Positions 46,276 to 58,313 of a stretch of 64,000 bases of DNA are shown one piece after another (position 1 is the stretch's first letter; every line of letters begins with the position of its first letter). Origin of the DNA: Natribaculum luteum (GTDB lineage: Archaea > Halobacteriota > Halobacteria > Halobacteriales > Natrialbaceae). The stretch spans positions 1,054,001 through 1,118,000 of the forward strand of contig NZ_CP095397.1 in NCBI RefSeq assembly GCF_023008545.1. The letters are read 5' to 3'. The notes under the pieces are model-generated. The model did no database searches and was not told the origin of the DNA. It saw nothing but the letters and a program-made list of their open reading frames with translations. A program made the translations under genes and the position numbers.

Positions 46276-47475
46276 TCACAGTTTGTGCCACGCGTCGTCG
46301 TCGTCCGAGTCGGGAAGCGACTCCGACGGCTCGTCGGCCGCGCCGAAGAGATCGGACGACGGAGAGTCGCCGTCGGTCCCGGAGAGTCGGTCGTGGTCGA
46401 ACTCGACGCCAGAACCGTCCTGGTGGCTGTCGATTTGGATCTCGGGCCAGGCCGTCCCCTCCCAGGTGCCCTGGTCGCTGTAGTAGTAGACCACGTCGTC
46501 GCTGACGACCGCGAACAACCCGCGTTGCCGGTCGTGCACGACGCGCTCGTTGGTGTCGATCGCGACGTCGACGACGTCCTCCAGGGTGTCGAGTTCGATC
46601 TGGTGGTCGCCGATCCACATCGGAATTCGGCCACGGGAGATCCACTCCGCGTACCGTCGTTCGTGGACTGCCCGGCGTGCCGACTCGACGTCGACGTCCG
46701 CTCGAGTGTAGACGAACGCGGCAGCACCGAACGATCCCACCGCGAGTACCCCCAGCAAGCCGACGAGCGCGGGATTTGGCGACTCGGTCACCTCGACCTC
46801 GGCGGTCTGGGGGTGACTCCGTTCTGCAGAGAGCCCTCCGTCGAACCAGTAGGCGTCGTCGGTGACGTGAAGCGTCGTCGACGACGTCAGGTTCCCCGCG
46901 TTCGACCCGGTATCGTACGCCGTCCGCACGTCGACCGAGGTCGTCACCGACCCCACGCCGGCGAGCTCGCGCTCGAGCGTGCGCTTTCGCTGGGCGATCG
47001 GTTCGACGTCCAGGGACGTCGACGACGTCCCCACGCCGTCTTCGACGCTCGCCGTCGCTCGCTCCTCGACGTGAACGTCTTCCCAGAACACCTCGCCGTT
47101 TCGGACCGCTTCGAATCGCACTGTGATCTCGTGGACGACCTTCGTCTCGTCGGTCGGGACAGCCGTCCGCGGCGCGAGGGTCACCGACGGCGACGCGTTC
47201 AGCAGGTAGACGGGATTGTTCTCGAGGTCCGATCCTCCTCGCCAGGTCCCGTCGTCCCAGAACCCGCTCTCGACGACCTCGGCGCGCGTGTCGACGTCGG
47301 TCGCGACGCGCTCCTGGCCGACCTCTTGCGTGACGGTCGTCGTCGACGGCGTCGCGACGACCCACCCTGCAGCAGCGACGGAGAGCACCCCGACGGCGAC
47401 CAGCGCGATCAACAGCGACCGACCGTGTCTGGCGATCAGCAGATCGACACGTGGATTCTCGATCACGTCACTCAC
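46276..47475 (-). CDS. DUF5305-domain membrane protein
   Basis: 399 aa. First membrane helix ~19-41 (SLLIALVAVGVLSVAAAGWV), extracytoplasmic beta-rich domain ~45-235 (VYLLNASPSVTLAPRT ... TLHVTDDAYWFDGGLS), second helix ~241-262, then a cytoplasmic part ending in an acidic tail. DUF5305 proteins are typically encoded next to signal peptidase I and DUF1102 proteins, exactly as here. A role in assembly or anchoring of the surface fibre is inferred. Confidence 0.75.
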   Translation of the reverse strand: MSDVIENPRVDLLIARHGRSLLIALVAVGVLSVAAAGWVVATPSTTTVTQEVGQERVATDVDTRAEVVESGFWDDGTWRGGSDLENNPVYLLNASPSVTLAPRTAVPTDETKVVHEITVRFEAVRNGEVFWEDVHVEERATASVEDGVGTSSTSLDVEPIAQRKRTLERELAGVGSVTTSVDVRTAYDTGSNAGNLTSSTTLHVTDDAYWFDGGLSAERSHPQTAEVEVTESPNPALVGLLGVLAVGSFGAAAFVYTRADVDVESARRAVHERRYAEWISRGRIPMWIGDHQIELDTLEDVVDVAIDTNERVVHDRQRGLFAVVSDDVVYYYSDQGTWEGTAWPEIQIDSHQDGSGVEFDHDRLSGTDGDSPSSDLFGAADEPSESLPDSDDDDAWHKL

Positions 47476-47620: not shown

Positions 47621-48790
47621 TCACCGCCATCGCCGCAGTTTTCGCTCGATTCGAGTCGACAGTGGGACGTGGTCGCCAGCACTTCGAAGCCGCAGGTCGC
47701 CACCGCCGAACACCGCGAGGACGACGGCGACGGTGACGCCGACGACGACCGCGTCGACCGCAGCGATCGCGACGAGCGGGTGAACCGCGTGGAGCCGCCC
47801 GAGAACCGACGGCGGCAACACGGCGAGATAACGGTATTCGCCGACGTGGCGAACGTAGTCGCCGGTCTCGTCGGGGGCGGTCAGCGTGACCGTCACCGTC
47901 GTCGTCGTGCGACTGCCGACGGTCACTCGCCCAGGATCGACCGCGACACCCTCGCTTTCGGCCTCGAGGACGACCACTACCGGGACGAATCCGGCGTTGT
48001 CGACGGTCCGCGACAGCTCGGTCGTCTCGCCGGGGGCAACGATCTGTGGGTCGTCGGTCGGATCGTCGGTGCTCACGAGGCCGTACTCCGTGACGCCCGA
48101 CGGGGCCACCATCGCCGCGGTCGCGACCGTGACGAGGACGACTACAATCACCCCGAGTGTCGCACGCAACGCGAGCACGTGCTCCCGGGACGTCGACCGA
48201 CTCGTCTGTCGCTGTGTCGGTCCTAACCGATCGAGCAGGAGGCCGACGCCCAGCAGCGCGACTCCGAGCCCGACCAGCAGCGATCCCAGGTCGTCACTCG
48301 AGGCAGAAGTCGTCAGCCCGACCGTCGACGCCAGGATACCGTACCCCGACTCGAGGACGCCGTGGATCCCCATGATGACGGCCCCGAGATGAGGGATCGT
48401 CACGACCTCACCGTTTATCTGCAACGCGACGGCGACGATCTGGGCGTCCGACACGGGGGGTTCGCCGCCGTCCTGGTCGGTGAAGGGGTTCGCGTCCCCC
48501 TTCGTGACGTACCCCTCGTCGGTGACGCCGACGACGCGGTGAGTCGTCAGCCCGCCGCCGTGGAGTTCGTCCGCGTCGAAGACGACGACGTCGCCCTCCT
48601 CGATCGGTCCGGCGACGACGCCGGGGATCGCGACGAAGCCGTCGCCGGCGTCCATCGTCGGCTCCATGCTGCCCGTCGCGACGTACCCCAGCAAGATCGG
48701 CTGGCCGAGCACCTGTCCGAGGACGAGCAAGACGACGACCGCGGCGACGACGAGACCGACCGCTCGGCGTGCGATCGTCCCGCCCGTCAT
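47621..48790 (-). CDS. Signal peptidase I (SipW/ER type) with long C-terminal extracytoplasmic extension
   Basis: 389 aa. Catalytic core in the first ~150 residues: helix ~8-30, Ser in ATGSMEPTMDAGD (~37-49), GDVVVFD (~65-71), His in LTTHRVVGV (~79-87), and TKGDANPFTDQD (~95-106) with the Asp. His instead of Lys makes it the archaeal/eukaryotic/SipW type. After ~150 come further helices (~165-190, 210-232), an Ig-like lumenal stretch (~235-330) and a final helix (~340-365). The fusion is twice the usual size and suggests a peptidase dedicated to neighbouring substrates. Confidence 0.85.
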   Translation of the reverse strand: MTGGTIARRAVGLVVAAVVVLLVLGQVLGQPILLGYVATGSMEPTMDAGDGFVAIPGVVAGPIEEGDVVVFDADELHGGGLTTHRVVGVTDEGYVTKGDANPFTDQDGGEPPVSDAQIVAVALQINGEVVTIPHLGAVIMGIHGVLESGYGILASTVGLTTSASSDDLGSLLVGLGVALLGVGLLLDRLGPTQRQTSRSTSREHVLALRATLGVIVVVLVTVATAAMVAPSGVTEYGLVSTDDPTDDPQIVAPGETTELSRTVDNAGFVPVVVVLEAESEGVAVDPGRVTVGSRTTTTVTVTLTAPDETGDYVRHVGEYRYLAVLPPSVLGRLHAVHPLVAIAAVDAVVVGVTVAVVLAVFGGGDLRLRSAGDHVPLSTRIERKLRRWR

Positions 48791-48957: not shown

Positions 48958-50091
48958 TCACCGCCCGAGTCGGCGGGACACCGCCCCCAGCAAGAACAGC
49001 GAGGCGACCATCGCCGGTGGGACGACCGCCACCACGGTCGCACTCGCCAGTTCGCGATTGCCGACCGAGACACTCGATTCGACGACCGTGACCGTCCCCG
49101 CGTCGACGCCGTCGACCGCGACGTCGTAGGTTCCGGGCTCGGTGGGTCGCCACTCGAACGTCACCGTCGTCGCCTCGCCGGGCGAGAGCGCGAACGCGTG
49201 GGTGTCGACGACGGCCCCGCCGACCGCGAGTTCGCCCGTCGCCTCGAGCGAGGCGTTGCCCTCGTTTTCGAACGTGGCTGTCACGACGATCGACTCGCCG
49301 GGCGGGATTCGGTCTGCTGCGAGCGTGACGTCGGTCACCGCGACGTCGGGGTGCGAGACGACCACCGTCCGAAAGACGCCACCGACGCCGACCCTGACCG
49401 ACCCCGTTCGGACTATCGGCCGTTCGAACGCGACCGTCTCGGTCTCGCCCGGCCTGACGGTCACCACCTGCTCGTCGACGACCCGCCCGTCGACGGTCAG
49501 TTCGGCGATCGTCGTCCTCGTCACGTCGTCGTCGTCGTTCGCGTAGGTCGCCCGCACCGTCACGGCGTCGCCGGGATCGAGGACGGTCGGCGACACCTCG
49601 AGGTCCGTCACCTCGAGCGACGACGAGGCGTCGTCCTCGTCGTCGTCCGCGTACCGGACGTGAACCGAAAACGACTCGCTCGCGTCCGTCGCGACGTGCG
49701 TATCGACCGCGACGCCGACGGCAGCCGTGTCGCCGGCTGACAGCTCGAGCGGACTCGAGGCGTCGATCGTCGCAGTCGGGTCGCTCCCCCGGTAGAACGC
49801 CACCCCCGCCACCTCGTGGTCGATCCACACCGCCCCAACGTCGTCGGTCGCCGTGATCGTGAACACCGCGTTCGCAGTCGTCACCGCGTCGTCGTTGAGC
49901 CGCTCGAAGTCGACCTCGAGTTCGCCGCTCTCGAGCGTGGCGTACGTGCCGTTCGACGAGGACGAGGGCTCGAGGACGACCGCACCGGTGGCGTCGTGCT
50001 CGAGGGGGATCGCGGCGGTCGGAGCCGCGAGACCGAGTGTAAGAACGAGGGCGACGACGAGAGTAGGTTTGAGCGGGGACACGTTGTTCAC
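48958..50091 (-). CDS. Secreted CARDB/DUF1102-like surface protein with C-terminal membrane anchor
   Basis: 377 aa from GTG (NNVSPLKPTLVVALVL). Signal peptide ~1-27; a DUF1102-like beta domain (~50-150, WIDHEVAGVAFYRGSD ... FSVHVRYADDD); two CARDB-type modules (~155-250 and ~255-340, PGESIVVTATFENEGNASLEATGEL); a final transmembrane helix (~350-372) with RRLGR. Probably part of a surface fibre or its anchor. Same strand and close spacing to the DUF1102 gene upstream and signal peptidase downstream. Confidence 0.7.
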   Translation of the reverse strand: MNNVSPLKPTLVVALVLTLGLAAPTAAIPLEHDATGAVVLEPSSSSNGTYATLESGELEVDFERLNDDAVTTANAVFTITATDDVGAVWIDHEVAGVAFYRGSDPTATIDASSPLELSAGDTAAVGVAVDTHVATDASESFSVHVRYADDDEDDASSSLEVTDLEVSPTVLDPGDAVTVRATYANDDDDVTRTTIAELTVDGRVVDEQVVTVRPGETETVAFERPIVRTGSVRVGVGGVFRTVVVSHPDVAVTDVTLAADRIPPGESIVVTATFENEGNASLEATGELAVGGAVVDTHAFALSPGEATTVTFEWRPTEPGTYDVAVDGVDAGTVTVVESSVSVGNRELASATVVAVVPPAMVASLFLLGAVSRRLGR

Positions 50092-50162: not shown

Positions 50163-50702
50163 TTACGAACTCTCTTCAGCGTGGATGGTAACATCAGTAT
50201 TCCCGTCTGCAGTGTAGGAGTCGTCGGTATCCACGATAACATCGATGTTTGTAGAGTCGCTTCCGGAAAGCGGCTCATGGTCGTTCACGTTGAACGTGAC
50301 TTTTGCCCCGTCGAGCGTGATAGTCGTCGAATCGCCTGCGAGAGTGTCACTCTCGTTACTAACACTGATATCAACAGTGCTTTCTCCCTGGTTCTGGATC
50401 TCAACTAATTGATTAAGCGTGGTCGTCGCATTCTCGTTGAAGCCACTACCACCAAAATCGGTTGTACCATTTTGACCGAGGTCAAACGTGAGTGATCCAT
50501 CACTATCGTTGGAAATGTAGGCACTTCCTTTGTAGTCGTCACCGGGAGTGATCGCGAGGTACGCATCCGCGTCACCAGCCGTTTCAACACTCACACCACG
50601 ATCCGCCTCGACGGTCGAGAACGCACCCGAACCGACGACGGCTCCGCCGATAGCGATGATCAATCCGAGTCCGATCAGAACGTTCTTGCGATTTGTTCTC
50701 AT
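50163..50702 (-). CDS. DUF1102 (TasA/camelysin-like) secreted protein 1
   Basis: 179 aa. Signal peptide ~6-27 ending GSGAFSTVEADRGVSVETAG, the signature of haloarchaeal DUF1102 proteins, followed by AYLAITP and a beta-sandwich rich in Asn/Ser/Thr/Asp. No cysteine. It is a candidate substrate of the signal peptidase at 47621-48790 and a candidate fibre subunit by analogy with TasA processed by SipW. First gene of the minus-strand surface operon. Confidence 0.75.
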   Translation of the reverse strand: MRTNRKNVLIGLGLIIAIGGAVVGSGAFSTVEADRGVSVETAGDADAYLAITPGDDYKGSAYISNDSDGSLTFDLGQNGTTDFGGSGFNENATTTLNQLVEIQNQGESTVDISVSNESDTLAGDSTTITLDGAKVTFNVNDHEPLSGSDSTNIDVIVDTDDSYTADGNTDVTIHAEESS

Positions 50703-50965: not shown

Positions 50966-51502
50966 ATGGCGACGAAGTCCGAAAGCACGATCGAGCGGGG
51001 GGAGATCTTCGACCTGCTGAGTAACCACCGGCGGCGGTACGCCATCCACTACTGCAAGCGCGAGGACGAACCCGTCGAACTGGGCGACCTCGCCGAACAC
51101 GTCGCCGCCTGGGAACTCGACAAGGACGTCGCCGAACTCACCTCCGCCGAACGCAAGCGGGTGTACACGTCACTCCAGCAGACCCACCTGCCCACGCTCG
51201 AGCGCGCGGACATGATCGAGTTCGACGACCGAACGATCGAGTTGACCGACGAGGCGTCCGACCTCGAGGTGTACCTCGACGTCGTCCCCGGCGACTCGAT
51301 CCCGTGGGGGCTGTACTACCTCGGCCTGTCGGCGGTCGGATTCGTCGTGATGGCAGGCGTGTGGCTCGAGGTGGTGCCGACCGAGACAGTGCCGGCGGTC
51401 GGCTGGGCGACGCTCGTCGTCGGGCTGTTCGCGGCGTCGGCAGTCGTCCACGTGGTCCAGAACCGACGGATGCGACTCGGCGAGATGGAACGACCACCCT
51501 GA
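50966..51502 (+). CDS. DUF7344-type winged-helix membrane protein, probable local regulator
   Basis: 178 aa. The N-terminal winged helix (~10-95, EIFDLLSNHRRRYAIHYCKRED ... ERKRVYTSLQQTHLPTLERADMIEFDD) is followed by two transmembrane helices (~115-135 and ~141-162). Haloarchaeal proteins of this type often sit beside surface or signalling loci. Encoded between two DUF1102 genes and beside paired inverted repeats, it is the best candidate regulator of the surface locus. Confidence 0.7.
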   Translation: MATKSESTIERGEIFDLLSNHRRRYAIHYCKREDEPVELGDLAEHVAAWELDKDVAELTSAERKRVYTSLQQTHLPTLERADMIEFDDRTIELTDEASDLEVYLDVVPGDSIPWGLYYLGLSAVGFVVMAGVWLEVVPTETVPAVGWATLVVGLFAASAVVHVVQNRRMRLGEMERPP

Positions 51503-51597: not shown

Positions 51598-52143
51598 ATG
51601 AAGACGATCACGAAACTCGGACTCGGACTCCTCGTCGTCGGAGCAGCCGTACTCGTTACGTCGAGTGGTGCGTTCGACTCGCTGTCTGCTGACCGTGGAA
51701 TTGGCGTCGAGACCGCACCCGACGCGGACGCGTACGTGGGACTCGAGTACCCCGAAGCCGATCAAGCGCGAACGATTCGACTGGAAAGCAGCACCGCAGA
51801 TAGCGGTGGCTTCTGTGTTTTGTATTCCTGTGACCCCTATCGCTACGACGATGTCGACGTCGTCGTGATCACGGACCAAACGGCGTCGGGAAATCTCGCC
51901 GTCGAGGACCTCACTGTCGTTTCAACTGGCGACGACGTGACAGCCGCGATCAATGAGGAATACGGGGAGAACAGTCTGAGAGTCGTCAGAGGGGACTTCG
52001 AGTGTCAGGTGGATCCCGTCTTCTTAGGCTACGGAACCCAGCAGGCAGCCACCGCGACGCTGACGATATCGCTCGAGGCAAGCGACGGGTCGTTTTCGAC
52101 CACGCTCGAGCGGGAAGTCACCGTCGAATGCGTGCCCGATTGA
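51598..52143 (+). CDS. DUF1102 (TasA/camelysin-like) secreted protein 2
   Basis: 181 aa. Signal peptide ~5-25, then SSGAFDSLSADRGIGVETAP and DADAYVGLEYP: the same signature as the protein at 50163-50702, but with a different body. It has four cysteines (CVLYSC ~79-84, FEC ~138, VEC ~178) that could form extracytoplasmic disulfides. Encoded on the opposite strand to the other surface genes. TGA stop at 52141; a repeat begins 17 bases later. Confidence 0.72.
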   Translation: MKTITKLGLGLLVVGAAVLVTSSGAFDSLSADRGIGVETAPDADAYVGLEYPEADQARTIRLESSTADSGGFCVLYSCDPYRYDDVDVVVITDQTASGNLAVEDLTVVSTGDDVTAAINEEYGENSLRVVRGDFECQVDPVFLGYGTQQAATATLTISLEASDGSFSTTLEREVTVECVPD

Positions 52144-52619: not shown

Positions 52620-52881
52620 ATGGTCCTCGGGACAGATTTCGGTAGCGACGACCCTTCCGAACGTGGGGCTGCACCCCTGCTTGGAATCGTACTGCTCTTC
52701 GGGATGGTGTTTATCGGTGTCACCCTCCTGTTTATTACAGGTACTGCACTGCTCGATTCGCTCGAAAGCGAGGGAAACGCAGAGCGGGCACACCAGTACA
52801 TGAGCCAGACGGACAAGGTGCTTTCGACGGCGGCGGTCACCGAAAGCGTTCACCAGCTCGACGTCCCACCAGGTGCTGATA
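52620..52881 (+). pseudogene. 5' fragment of a giant pilin-like surface protein gene (interrupted by IS)
   Basis: About 87 codons before the insertion. After SERG comes AAPLLGIVLLFGMVFIGVTL (~17-36), a class III (pilin-like) signal helix, then QYMSQTDKVLSTAAVTESV as in the haloarchaeal DUF7289 type. The frame enters IS630-family sequence at TA 52880-52881. The missing remainder is the fragment at 55398-58313. Read-through into the IS would end at 52994. Confidence 0.75.
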
Positions 52882-52882
52882 C

Positions 52883-53141
52883 TCACGGACATAAGTACGT
52901 AAAGACATCTGGCACGTTGATCTCGTCCAGTGCACAGAGAGCAGCATCACGAAGTTCGTCAAGCGTTTCGAATAGGCGGTTGCCGAGTGATTGATCGAGT
53001 TGTCGCCAGCACTCTTCCGCGGGGTTCAGCTCTGGTGAACCCCGCGGAAGGTAACACAGTTCGATCGGAGTACCTTCAACGAACTCTTGGACTCTGTTCG
53101 CCGTGAAATACGAGGCGTTGTCGAGGACAACGCAGATTTTC
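52883..53141 (-). pseudogene. IS630 transposase, C-terminal part (cut by ISH6)
   Basis: Encodes CVVLDNASYFTANRVQEF, then CYLPRGSPELNPAEECWRQL and ends FTYLCP. It holds the second Asp (LDNAS) and the final Glu (PELNPAEE) of the DDE triad. The first Asp lies in the part at 54584-54866. The stop is within a few bases of the IS end, as is usual in this family. Confidence 0.8.
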
Positions 53142-54583
53142 GGTCGTGTCCCAAACTCGTCTAGAGTCGTAACTGACTCCTGTGGAAACAGGGTCACCTC
53201 TGGTATCCACCCCGAAGTGACCCATGCACGCCACAATCGACGCGCAAGTCACGGTTAGTATCGACTTAGACAAAACGCTACCGCTTGCCACTCTCGCTGA
53301 ATCTTTTACAGAGCTTCACCTCGAGGCGACGATCCTCGAGGAGCTTGTCAAAAGCCTCGACGAGCGCCTCGTCGAGGCGTACTGTGGGGAGAAGCACGCG
53401 CGCGGAAACGGCGATCGCCGTTTCCAGCGCGCCGGAACCTCAACACGAACAGCTGTGACAACCGCAGGAGAGCACGAATTCACCCTTCATCACGTCAAAG
53501 ATACCGCTGCCACCGGTGACAATCCTACCTACTTCCGCCCTCTCGAAGATCTCATCAAATTCGACGGGCAGCGCATCTATCAAGAGGATATTTCACTCCA
53601 GAGTACCGAACTCGCTACGTCGCTCAGCTTTCGTGATGCCGTCGCCCACGGCGACGGCTTCACTCCGATGCCTTCGAGAACGACGATCAACCGCCGAGTC
53701 CGTGAGTACGGCAGCAAACTCGGTGACTTCGTTCGTGATCGGCTTCCTGGGACGAATGCAGACACTGTCGTTCCTGACGGAACGAAGTGTCATAGCCAGG
53801 ACGATCACTGCACGTACCACGACGTCAACGTCACTCTCGGACAGATCACCGAAGACAACGCGGAAACCACGCTCTTAGACGTCAATGTCAACGAGCCGTG
53901 GGACGATACAGCAGAAGATCTCGAAGAGAACGAGGCGATCACTGACGACGCGACGGTCGTCAGTGACGCCGAGGAATCCCTCGTCGACGCCTTCGAGACC
54001 AGCTATCGATCTCATCAGCTCGATCTCGTTCATGTCGGTCGAACGCTTGGATACAAGCTGTGGAAGGACGGTACCTTTTCGCTCGAAACGCGGAAAGCGA
54101 TCGCCTCAGACGTCACAAACGACTTGTTCCATCTGAAAAACTCGGTTGCGCTCCATGCACCGAGGAATGAGCGTTTGGCGATCCGCGAGCGGATCGCCCA
54201 AACGCTCGAGAACCTCACGAAGGAGGCGTGGCGCTTAGAGCAACAGGACTCTCCAAAAGCAGCGGCGTACCTCCGAAAATGGGCAGAAGCAACCGTCACG
54301 TTCGCCGAACTCGCACTCGAGGGACAAGAGGTTCTGTGGACGTCGAACGTGGTCGAACGAGCCATGGGCGAAATCTCGAAGCGGTGTAAAAACCAGTGGA
54401 TGAGATGGACAGAGTCCGGCTTAGAATCGCTCCTCTGGCTCAATCTCGTGAGATATGCCGAGTCCGAGCAGTTCGCGGCGTTCGCCGACGAACTGCTCGA
54501 GCGTTCAGCCAAAACAGCCATCACATTGGAGGTGTCAGTTGACGCTACCAGAGGCGAACTCTAGACGAGTTTGTGACGGGACC
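53142..54583 (+). mobile_element. ISH6-type insertion sequence
   Basis: 1442 bp with inverted ends GGTCGTGTCCCAAACTCGTC and, on the other strand, GGTCCCGTCACAAACTCGTC (then TAGAGT in both). An exact 8-bp duplication AGATTTTC lies at 53134-53141 and 54584-54591. Length, ends and duplication agree with what is known of ISH6. It inserted into the IS630 transposase gene and is therefore the younger event. Confidence 0.9.
53224..54564 (+). CDS. ISH6-family transposase
   Basis: 446 aa, apparently intact. Begins MHATIDAQVTVSIDLDKTLP. Acidic candidates of a DDE site include VVPDGTKCHSQD (~181-192), and the C-terminal VLWTSNVVERAMGEISKRCK with conserved Glu (~380). The gene fills almost the whole element and reads away from the IS630 transposase frames. 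Confidence 0.9.
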   Translation: MHATIDAQVTVSIDLDKTLPLATLAESFTELHLEATILEELVKSLDERLVEAYCGEKHARGNGDRRFQRAGTSTRTAVTTAGEHEFTLHHVKDTAATGDNPTYFRPLEDLIKFDGQRIYQEDISLQSTELATSLSFRDAVAHGDGFTPMPSRTTINRRVREYGSKLGDFVRDRLPGTNADTVVPDGTKCHSQDDHCTYHDVNVTLGQITEDNAETTLLDVNVNEPWDDTAEDLEENEAITDDATVVSDAEESLVDAFETSYRSHQLDLVHVGRTLGYKLWKDGTFSLETRKAIASDVTNDLFHLKNSVALHAPRNERLAIRERIAQTLENLTKEAWRLEQQDSPKAAAYLRKWAEATVTFAELALEGQEVLWTSNVVERAMGEISKRCKNQWMRWTESGLESLLWLNLVRYAESEQFAAFADELLERSAKTAITLEVSVDATRGEL

Positions 54584-54866
54584 AGATTTTCTCGCCGAAC
54601 TCGGTCTGGAGAGCGTCCAGAAAACGAATCGTCGTGTCGCTGTTGAAGTTCTCTTCGCAGGGGAGAAAGAACGTCTCATCAGTATCGCTGACTGCACCGA
54701 GAAGTTTGATGCTGTCCCACGCGCCCGTCACCGGGAGTGACGGGCGCTCACCCTTGGGAAACCATGCGTGAATCAGTGTCGAGAGAACCTGTCGCGTCTG
54801 ATCAATGGCTAAGATCGTGTATTCGTCGTCCAGGTTGTCGCGCTTTTTTTGAACCCGTCTTGCCAT
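54584..54866 (-). pseudogene. IS630 transposase, catalytic-frame N-terminal part (cut by ISH6)
   Basis: Reads DEYTILAIDQTRQVLSTL (first DDE Asp in AIDQT), then NSDTTIRFLDALQTEFGEKI, and is broken there by ISH6 (the continuation is at 52883-53141). Its start overlaps the helix-turn-helix frame at an A7 run (54844-54850 on the plus strand as T7), a plausible programmed frameshift site. Confidence 0.75.
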
Positions 54867-55354
54867 GCTTCCTGTGCTCTCTCATCGGATTTGTGAAACT
54901 CCGGCCGGGCTGTCTTCCAGGACAGCCCGGCCTCGGTCATCAATCGTCGAACGTGACGCTCACTGTACTCAACGTCGAATTCCTCGGCGAGATAGTGACG
55001 AGCTAGTGGAACGGACCACGCAGGCGCGTCAAGTCCAACTTCCTCTGGAGACTTGTGAAGCGCTTCAACGAACTGTTCATGTTCTTTGTCGGAGAGTTTT
55101 GAGGGCCTTCCTGAACGGTGCTCGTCGTAGACGACCTCCTCGAACGGCTCGTCGGCGAGCCGTTCGAGTCGATCAAGCCACCGCGAGAGCCAGCCAGCAG
55201 TGTATCCATAGCGTTCAGCGACCTCTTGTAGCGTTGCACCGTCTTCTTCAAGGTAATTGATCGCCGCCATGAGCCGTTGTGATGGCTTTTTTCCCTCGAC
55301 CTCCGCCAAGACCTGGCGGAGGTCTTCGGTAGAGACGTTGTCGAGAGAGGTCAT
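54809..55354 (-). CDS. IS630 transposase, helix-turn-helix frame
   Basis: 181 aa from MTSLDNVSTEDLRQVLAEVE. Helix-turn-helix DGATLQEVAERYGYTAGWLS (~35-54) and Winged-helix-33 type region EEVVYDEHRSGRPSKLSDKE (~72-91), then YSERHVRRLMTEAGLSWKTA. DNA-binding half of a two-frame IS630 transposase. No longer functional as a pair because the catalytic frame is interrupted. Confidence 0.8.
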   Translation of the reverse strand: MTSLDNVSTEDLRQVLAEVEGKKPSQRLMAAINYLEEDGATLQEVAERYGYTAGWLSRWLDRLERLADEPFEEVVYDEHRSGRPSKLSDKEHEQFVEALHKSPEEVGLDAPAWSVPLARHYLAEEFDVEYSERHVRRLMTEAGLSWKTARPEFHKSDERAQEAWQDGFKKSATTWTTNTRS

Positions 55355-55397
55355 ATCGGAGTAACGTGCTTTTCTTTGAAATATTTTTGGCTGACAG

Positions 55398-58313
55398 TAT
55401 GAGGCATCGATCGTGGACGACGGCGAGATCGAAGTCGTCTGGTACAACGCGAGCGCGTCGTCCGATCCACCGTGGGACGACGAGAGCCTGGGATGTACTG
55501 CCCCAGAGAACGTCTCTGGCGAGCTGAACGCACTCGAGTACGAACTCGACGGCCGAACGATCGCCCATCAGGGCGGCGGCGTCTGGGAGCGAAAGAACGG
55601 TGCGACGACGGTCGTCTCGGGGCCGAACGTCGGGTACGACGGCGAGACGCTCCAGCTCAAGATCATGCAGCTCGAGGAGGGCAAATTCGATGGTGAGTTG
55701 ACTGCACGGGCCAATCACAGCAAGTCGACGGCGTTGACGCGTGAACTCAAGGGCGCGGGCGACGACTGCCGGGACAAGGGCGACGTTGCGCTCAAAGTTC
55801 AGAGTTCCTACCACGACGGCTGGTACGAGCACTTTCAGGACTCGTTCGACACGAGCGACGGCAACGTGACCGTCAAATCCGATTCTGAGACGAGCGAGGA
55901 CGAAACTGTCGTTGTGGTGATCGAGGGCGTGCGAGAGACGGTCGAGAATCCGACGTTCGTTGTTGCAGAGGACAAAGGGCTGAAAGAGCCGGGAAAGGGT
56001 GGAGATCCGATCGATCCGCCAGTTCTCAGTAACGAGTCTTCTGCGTTCCGAATTGGCGGCATGATTGAGAACGTTGGTGATGAAGTGGACACCCAGGACG
56101 TCGGGATAACGATCGAAGACGAGAGCGAAGACGGATACAGCGATGACGTGGAGTTGACACTCGATCCCGAAGAGGAACAGGATATTTCCGAACCGAGCCT
56201 GATTGGTCAGTTCCCGTCACCTAGCTCAGCGCACTTCGAGTTCACGGACGGCGAGACTTACGAGTACACAATCTGGACCGAGGACGACGAACTCGACGAG
56301 CCAGGGTCGTTCTACTTCGGCAAGAAGGGAACGCACCTCGACCTGACCAACGACGACGTCGAAACGAGCGAAGAGGACGGCAACGTAACGATCAGCGTCG
56401 ACGTGCGGAACGTCGGCATCGAGAACGCGACGAACGCCGACGTCACCCTCGAGTTCGACGACCTCGACGTCAGCGATAACCAGACGTTGGACGTCGAGTA
56501 CGGCGGTACCGGCACCGTCGAGTGGACGGTGAACAAGAGTGCCCTGCCGGCGGGAGAACACGACGTCACGATCGACACCGGCGACGAAACCGCCTCGGCC
56601 ACGGTCGAGGGTGAGGCGACCGGCGAGGGGGGCGCGTTCGTCGTCGTCGAGGACGAAGGCGTCGGCGAGGATCAGCTCGTCGCGGACGACGGGACGATGT
56701 TCGAGGTGAGTGCCGCCGTCCAGAGCACGTACCCGACCGACGACGTGAGGCGGAACGTCACGCTGACGATCCCGAATGCGAGCGTGAACGTCGACGAGCC
56801 GGTGACACTCGACAGCGGCGAACGCGAGACGGTCACGTTCGACGTCGACCCAGACGCACACGACTTCGACCACGGACGCGCCTACGAGTACGACGTCCAG
56901 GCCGACGGAACCGGCCTGAACGAAACGGGGCGGTTCTACTTCGGCAAACCCGGTAGCGAGTTCGAACTGTCGAACGCGAACGCGTCGGACGGCGACGACG
57001 AAATCGTGCTCACAGCCGACCTGCACAACACGGGCGTCGACGACGACGAACAGAACGTGACCCTCGAGCTCGATTACCGGGGCGACCTGCCGGACGAACT
57101 CGAGGACGATCCCTATGCGGAGCCGATCGACGCGGGAAGCACCACCGAGTGGGCGTTCGGAAAGAACGACACCATCGAACTGCCGATCAACGAGAGCGTG
57201 CTCATCGACGGGACGTACGACGCGACGATCAAGACCGAGGACGACGAGGTCGATGTGAGGTTCAACGTGACTGCCGGCGTCGACCCTGGTCGGGTCGGAC
57301 TCGGTGAGGTCGAGAACGCGACCGTCGATATATCTGTGTTGAGTTCGCAAGTCTCCGGTATCTATGGAGGAGATCATGGGCTTGGAACCATGACGCTCGA
57401 AGTTCTCACTGAACGGGATGGGGAAACGAACACGGAACACGTGTTCGAGAATCCTGAAAACGGGAGCAATATTAACACGTACCCGACGTGGCAGGACAAG
57501 AGTCACCACGTCTACAACACGACGATAGAGATTGAAGAAGAAGCGACACTGACGCTCGCATCCAAGTCGTACGGCCTACCAGGACAGACAGCGGGGTGTG
57601 AACTAAGCGAAGAGGTCCGTAGCACCTTCTTTGGAATTCCTACTAGTCACCATCAGTGGTGCGAGGACTTCGATACCTCTTCGACAAGCTACCTCGTCGA
57701 TCCGGTCGACGCAACCGCCGACGAGCAAGAACAAAACCTCAGAGTTCGAACCGCGGAAAACAACGATCTCCCCAGTCTCCAACCCGGTAACGAAGAGCAA
57801 GAGAGTGTCGACGAGATTCTTTCGGATATCTCCGACCCTGCCATAGACCGCGACAATCTCTGGGAAGACGGTGAGCTTGACCTGAACGAAAATGAGTTCA
57901 TCTTCCTCTTCGAGATGACCACCGAATGTGGGATGTTTGACTCTGGTTGCAATGCCGACGATGACGATATCGATGCGCTGTGGGAGAGTGCACAGCAGCA
58001 AACTAGTGCTGGCGACCCGAACTTCAACGACCTGATCGTCTACGTCGAGGTCGAACGGGCAGACGTCGATCCCGGAAAGCCGAGCATCACGATCAGTCCT
58101 AGTGGTGGCGACGGACCCGATGTCGACCCCGGCGACGGGAGTGACGTGGGCGGCGTCGACGATCCCGACGTTGATCTCGGCGGCAGTGCCAGCGACGGTG
58201 GCTCCCCGGACCTCGGACCCGGCGAATCCGACTCGGACAACGTGGGCGGGTCGGACACGGTGATTGACGATACCGGTATCGACATCGATTCCGATCACAT
58301 CGTCGTCGGGTAA
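55398..58313 (+). pseudogene. 3' fragment of the giant pilin-like surface protein gene
   Basis: About 971 codons open after the insertion. Contains two long related modules: one from ~NPTFVVAEDKGL to SFYFGKKGTHLDL, another from ~GAFVVVEDEGVG to RFYFGKPGSEFEL, each ~200 residues, with CARDB-like strands (VDVRNVGIENATNADVTLEF). Several Cys in the last third and an Asp/Gly/Ser-rich C-terminus (PDVDPGDGSDVGG). Joining at a single TA does not restore one frame with the 5' fragment (net offset of one base). A GTG at 55413 could restart translation, but the product would lack a secretion signal. Confidence 0.7.

Follow-up and report, generated by a model that had tools for sequence, protein, structure and literature searches.

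Why does a haloarchaeal signal peptidase encoded among fimbrial-type genes carry an Ig-like domain, and are the two parts truly one protein? The question is raised by gene P0001 of Natribaculum luteum, which lies in a stretch of 64,000 nucleotides that we analyzed as a whole (hereafter the window; Table 1). A preliminary description of this DNA had recognized a signal peptidase from its motifs, had taken the long remainder of the protein as a fused extension with an Ig-like module, and had suggested that this extension couples processing to polymerisation.

Table 1. Features of the P0001 locus, with their positions in the window and the supporting evidence.
Feature	Position	Strand	Evidence
Fused signal peptidase P0001	47621..48790	-	389 aa ORF; TIGR02228, conservation, model
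Membrane helix 1, residues 10-28	48707..48763	-	Hydropathy mean 2.53 (49 sequences); model helix 3-27
Catalytic domain, residues 31-133	48392..48700	-	TIGR02228; invariant Ser41, His84, Asp99, Asp105; fold match
Membrane helix 2, residues 168-189, then Arg-rich loop 190-207	48224..48289	-	Hydropathy and charge (49 sequences); model
Membrane helix 3, residues 208-229	48104..48169	-	Hydropathy; model
Ig-like (MSP/PapD-like) beta-sandwich, predicted extracytoplasmic, residues 231-326	47813..48100	-	Model, fold search, conserved G strand
Membrane helix 4, residues 338-361, then Arg-rich cytoplasmic tail	47708..47779	-	Model; hydropathy/charge
DUF5305 membrane protein, constant partner	46276..47475	-	PF17231 E 8.1e-50; co-occurrence; model
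Probable fimbrial anchor with subunit-like domain (N-terminal), two CARDB repeats and a membrane helix (C-terminal)	48958..50091	-	
Fimbrial subunit/adapter, TafE/TafA-like, junction motif GSGAFSTVEADR	50163..50702	-	TafE E 4.3e-22, below cut-off; 9p0a
Divergent DUF7344 protein, probable regulator	50966..51502	+	PF24035 E 6.1e-30; family near peptidase in 66/81 loci
Second, divergent Taf-like subunit, motif SSGAFDSLSADR	51598..52143	+	TafE E 2.3e-6, below cut-off; motif

Catalytic core and predicted topology

The motifs GSMEPTM, TTHRVVGV and TKGDANP are all present in the 389-residue ORF. The archaeal type I signal peptidase model TIGR02228 matches residues 13-124 with 61.2 bits, above its cut-off of 51.85, while the Pfam S26 score of 22.1 falls just under the gathering score of 22.9 and the SipW model NF046067 gives 38.9 bits, far below its equivalog cut-off of 190. 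We picked 49 relatives at less than 75% mutual identity, and all of them match both TIGR02228 and, weakly, the SipW model at E <= 0.01; 45 also match Pfam S26 at this threshold. Ser41, His84, Asp99 and Asp105 are invariant in the 49 relatives and at least 97% conserved in an alignment of 81 loci. In the alignment with human SEC11A, Ser41, His84 and the Asp positions fall on the catalytic-site residues. By sequence, the core is closest in the PDB to SEC11A/C, which performs catalysis in a multi-subunit complex, and the fold of the core resembles those of signal peptidases, with SipA of Streptococcus pyogenes as best structural match (PDB 4n31; Z 10.4, rmsd 2.0, 90 residues) and SEC11C at Z 9.8. 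A separate TIGR02228 copy in the same genome scores far better (117 bits). Judged by the curated cut-off and the conserved catalytic residues, the window protein is an archaeal type I signal peptidase; the ORF and its motifs are as the preliminary description had given them.

To describe the remainder of the protein, we relied on an AlphaFold2 model built on the 49-sequence alignment (mean pLDDT 81.9). The model has helices at residues 3-27, 135-157, 166-189, 208-228 and 338-361, and a beta-sandwich with strands between residues 232 and 322, whose pLDDT is about 92-97 in 10-residue blocks. In the 49 sequences, lysine plus arginine reach 19% in residues 1-9, 29% in loop 190-207 and 31% in the C-terminal tail, as compared to 3.6% in the catalytic part and 5.5% in the Ig-like domain. 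By the positive-inside rule, this distribution indicates four membrane helices, with the catalytic and Ig-like domains outside and the loop and the tail inside. In the topology predicted from the conserved arginines, active site and Ig-like domain thus share the outer face. The domain is also acidic, like other haloarchaeal surface domains. We discarded a topology with five membrane helices and the Ig-like domain inside, as helix 135-157 has no more than mild hydrophobicity (mean 1.03) and five helices would leave the Arg-rich loop and tail outside. The extension described at the outset is therefore made of three further membrane helices and a confidently modelled beta-sandwich, and topology prediction and structural modelling, two of the checks that had been proposed for it, both point to an outward-facing Ig-like domain.

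The sequence match to Ig-like families is weak (Ig_VWA7, E 0.0029, below cut-off), and the label 'Ig-like' therefore rests on the model and on the fold search. Residues 226-346 match MSP/VAP, ASH/HYDIN and PapD-like domains with Z between 6.5 and 8.0 in VIA-align, whose background level is 8, and with E 1.6e-3 and weaker in Foldseek. The pilus chaperones Caf1M, CupB2, YadV and FimC are among these matches (Z 6.5-6.7). Because the Z values are at the background level of the tool itself, they name a fold class and no function. The fold matches include no accessory chain of the signal peptidase complex of eukaryotes, but this list has one chain per entry and excludes nothing. The domain is best conserved in strand G and immediately after it, with the consensus TGxYxRxVxExRYLxVLP in the 49 sequences: Tyr321 is present in all 49, Leu325 and Pro326 in 48, Glu318 in 46 and Arg320 in 45. 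The conserved positions of strand G include the charged residues Arg314, Glu318 and Arg320, and the strand has no alternating hydrophobic face.

Conservation of the fusion

A sequencing error that joined two neighboring genes could also produce such a protein, and a related copy divided into two overlapping frames could be taken in its favor. We consider this explanation hardly credible, as the fusion recurs in independent genomes. A scan of genome_contigs returned 80 named loci, which were chosen by similarity to the window protein and are hence biased to full-length copies; together with the window, 81 out of 81 have a single full-length fused frame. Searches genome by genome, which are less biased, found a full-length copy in 56 out of 61 family genomes, 57 of which gave some match, and in 72 out of 97 genomes of the class. 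Any match was detectable in 84 of the 97 class genomes, 12 of these matches being weak or partial, and 13 genomes had none; throughout the phylum, 66 out of 120 genomes had a match. One further family of the phylum (hereafter the second lineage) has fused homologues of 327-354 residues, intact in 10 of the 11 loci read. Three more diverged copies (G132, G006 and G118) are also fused and adjoin fimbrial and DUF5305 genes. We therefore rejected a joining artefact: the fusion is conserved across loci, across the class and in the second lineage. The fusion that the preliminary description had recognized is real, and it is widespread in haloarchaea.

The divided copy (L124:7709-8723, minus strand) owes its break to a single frame change, located where the cytosolic loop has an A-rich run of lysine codons, and its halves, two overlapping frames, are still adjacent. 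From the sequence, sequencing error, decay and phase switch appear indistinguishable as causes, and the break probably says little on whether the extension can be a separate gene. We searched for the extension as an unrelated gene elsewhere, an arrangement that would speak against a true fusion, and found none; L124 is the only divided copy.

Shorter peptidases also occur. Two genomes (G095 and G107) have an orphan peptidase of 194 residues (L114:3708-4289 and L115:3917-4498) that closely resembles the core of the fused proteins and has no extension. In the 8 kb inspected around these peptidases, neither an extension gene nor a cassette gene was found. The core can therefore exist alone. In another family of the phylum, L135 (23-1481, 1481-2704) and L137 (4300-7119) have a short peptidase of 226-242 residues that lacks the Ig-like domain and lies beside secreted proteins. 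At L135 these secreted proteins match cytochrome c7/c3 models, in one case above the cut-off, and the peptidase is possibly dedicated to extracellular cytochromes. Relatives of the fused protein were absent from viral_contigs; in plasmids, 12 records match, of which three cover 80% or more of the query at a single location.

The fimbrial cassette and DUF5305

To characterize the neighborhood of the fused peptidase, we called the genes of each locus with a score of amino-acid composition, for which eight window genes had served as training set, and grouped them with BLAST. Fimbrial-type genes lie within 8 genes of the peptidase in 74 out of 81 loci, DUF7344 genes in 66, and DUF5305 genes in 77. 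In 62 loci DUF5305 is at position +1, directly downstream on the same strand, and only at L078, L090, L094 and L104 was it not found within 8 genes. The genome of N. luteum itself has three fused peptidases and three DUF5305 genes, every pair lying within about 0.6 kb by coordinates, and reading of the two stretches with the paralogous copies showed fimbrial-type genes near both. The association is also detectable at the level of whole genomes. DUF5305 is present in 72 out of 72 class genomes with a full-length fusion, as compared to 5 of the 25 without (P-value about 2e-16, Fisher test, not corrected for relatedness). In two of those five (G118 and G121) both signals are diverged, and the G118 copy (L123) is fused. 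The 11 loci of the second lineage repeat the pattern, with fimbrial-type genes in all 11, DUF5305 in 10 (not in L131) and DUF7344 in 6. The model of DUF5305 has a helix at residues 8-41, a beta-rich domain at 45-230 and a second helix at 235-257, followed by a smaller domain; the fold search returned no clear relative for it (best Z 7.8).

The subunits of the cassette are homologous to those of Taf fimbriae, which are represented by the NCBIfam models TafA, TafC, TafE and TafF and by PDB entry 9p0a. The subunit encoded next to the anchor gene misses both equivalog cut-offs (TafE, 78.7 vs 155; TafA, 41.5 vs 190); on its own it matches 9p0a, described as 'Pilin', with E 6.9e-17, and the profile of its family does so with E 3.5e-44. 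TafA and TafE are each matched by 51 out of 52 members of the subunit family at E <= 0.01. No family match at E <= 0.01 gives the peptidase or DUF5305 a Taf name. The preliminary description had placed DUF1102 proteins next door, which holds at the family level and not for the window itself: Pfam DUF1102 (PF06510) has no match in the window subunits and is matched by 4 of the 52 haloarchaeal subunits, whereas the two second-lineage subunits tested match it with E 2.2e-52 and 4.4e-41. TasA entries are absent among the PDB sequence matches of the subunits at E <= 10, a comparison of sequences only. The CARDB protein between subunit and peptidase matches CARDB with E 2.8e-13 and, in its N-terminal domain, the subunit family alignment with E 5.6e-15; 5 of its 30 relatives match TafF. 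It is likely the membrane anchor of the fibre.

At the end of their signal peptides the subunits share the motif G-A-F-x-x-V-x-A-D/E-R, which in the second lineage reads G-A-x-F-x-x-Y-x-A-D-R. The motif occurs in 107 out of 252 fimbrial-type proteins, as compared to none of the 1186 remaining genes in the 80 named loci, an enrichment that is partly circular because the pattern was written after these subunits had been seen. It is present in 78 of the 103 members of the main subunit cluster and in none of the 42 anchor proteins; in the 11 second-lineage loci it recurs in 24 proteins, of which one is probably unrelated. This resembles TasA, whose special site is reported to be cut by SipW as its dedicated peptidase (PMC10269814). 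At the start of the subunit signal peptides Arg5 is invariant and Arg6 at least 90% conserved, and 23 of the 52 match the TAT-target model weakly. The subunits may thus be exported by the twin-arginine route, in which case they would be folded before export.

Further along the window, pieces of a DDE_3-type (IS630-like) transposase gene lie at 52886-53236 and 54564-55447 on the minus strand. They are split by a Mutator-type transposase gene (53224-54561, plus strand), with imperfect inverted repeats of 26 nt at 53142-53167 and 54558-54583. The arrangement is one of nested insertion sequences. On either side, the plus-strand segments 52620-52994 and 55413-58313 correspond to the beginning and the remainder of DUF7289 (profile positions 1-53 and 98-232), and they appear to be a single gene for a surface protein, about 1,100 codons long, that the nested insertions interrupted.

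Taken with its neighbors, the fused protein is very probably a dedicated fimbrial signal peptidase with an outward-facing Ig-like domain.

What the Ig-like domain may do

Among the closest known arrangements is that of SipW in the Bacillus subtilis tapA-sipW-tasA operon, where a dedicated peptidase is encoded with the fibre subunits that it cleaves (PMC9674648). The window arrangement is SipW-like in that the peptidase gene lies beside fimbrial-type genes, both in the 81 haloarchaeal loci and in the second lineage at the frequencies given above. Unlike the window protein, SipW has no Ig-like extension (its model has 189 positions), and it is not known to have a DUF5305 partner. Archaeal signal peptidase I (TIGR02228) and SEC11 share with the window protein the core, its fold and the invariant Ser, His and Asp, and lack its 230-residue membrane-Ig-membrane extension. 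SipA is a bacterial protein that acts in a sortase pilus system. According to the title of its structure entry, it is homologous to signal peptidases and essential for the polymerisation of pili, which is a precedent for such an enzyme in pilus assembly; the archaeal protein retains the catalytic residues. SipW has also been reported to be bifunctional (PMC13082335). A literature search in a limited collection returned no paper that names TafA-TafF, 9p0a or DUF5305, nor one that names a fused signal peptidase of fimbriae; since the NCBIfam models and the PDB entry exist, a description of the Taf fimbria may be in print elsewhere.

The reading that we prefer, and for which we see an even chance, is that of a SipW-type enzyme whose tethered Ig-like domain docks fimbrial parts at the place where their signal peptides are removed. 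Subunits of the Taf/DUF1102 family would be exported and retained by their signal peptides, and the outward Ser-His-Asp core would cut them at or near the GAFxxVxADR junction. The cut would make a subunit ready for polymerisation if the segment following the signal peptide were a donor strand as in TasA, where the segment right after the signal peptide joins each subunit to the next (PMC9674648). The Ig-like domain, set between helices 3 and 4, would hold the enzyme beside newly cleaved subunits, the CARDB anchor and/or DUF5305, so that cleavage and incorporation would happen in one place. Fusion, predicted topology, catalytic residues, cassette, co-inheritance with DUF5305, junction motif and the conservation around strand G all support this reading. 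Against it count the 194-residue peptidases, in which the core occurs alone and away from cassette genes, the partly circular enrichment of the motif and its absence from the anchor. The proposal that the extension may be an assembly platform coupling processing to polymerisation is plausible. Profile comparisons detected no relation of the fused protein or its extension to the subunits, nor of the fused protein to DUF5305, and we found no support for the idea that the extension is a relative of either; between the Ig-like domain and the CARDB part of the anchor there is a weak match (probability 61%).

The domain could instead be a scaffold of the enzyme itself, which braces the catalytic domain or sets its distance from the membrane and makes no contact with the fimbria. 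Accessory lumenal subunits act as such a scaffold in the eukaryotic signal peptidase complex, and the best sequence match of our core, SEC11A/C, belongs to that kind of multi-subunit assembly; core and Ig-like domain moreover share one chain and one face. However, archaeal and SipW-type peptidases exist without an Ig-like domain (the TIGR02228 and SipW profiles have 158 and 189 positions), as do the short forms of L135 and L137, and the fused form stays with the fimbrial/DUF5305 cassette; we regard this role as rather unlikely. A contact with the S-layer or another envelope component, with fimbria assembly independent of it, would fit the outward position and the acidic surface of the domain. 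That the domain keeps to the same cassette in two lineages argues against such a contact, which we consider improbable.

The fold matches also suggest a donor-strand chaperone of the PapD kind, in which an edge strand of the Ig-like domain would cap freshly cleaved subunits until they polymerise. The chaperone-usher chaperones Caf1M, FimC, YadV and CupB2 have an Ig-type fold similar to that of residues 226-346, at Z values that are nonetheless under the tool's background level. PapD-type pilus chaperones have two Ig-like domains and a G strand with an alternating hydrophobic face. The window protein differs in having a single Ig-like domain in the model and a charged G strand, and in being fused to a peptidase and tethered to the membrane. 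The N-x-G-x-x-P pattern carries little weight, as it is widespread in Ig-type domains. Nor was an usher gene seen. In favor of a chaperone role, the thread-filament cluster is reported to contain no definitively assignable chaperone or usher (PMC9715654). With a fold match at background and two chaperone hallmarks missing, we lowered this candidate from a main reading to one that is doubtful at best. A bolder form of the docking reading, which we hold to be unlikely as it stands, is a 'cut-and-hold' machine on one chain, whose tethered domain, directly after signal-peptide removal has freed the N-terminal segment of a subunit, captures the freshly cut subunit and passes it to the membrane-anchored base of the fibre.

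If it were true, cut-and-hold would do the work for which bacterial donor-strand pili have a chaperone and an usher as separate proteins, and it would predate the split of the haloarchaea from the second lineage of the same phylum. The cassette belongs to a widespread haloarchaeal fimbria, and its constant gene pair speaks for annotating DUF5305 as a protein of fimbria assembly. For the assembly of archaeal fibres joined by donor strands, two concrete candidates for the apparatus can now be named, the fused peptidase and DUF5305.
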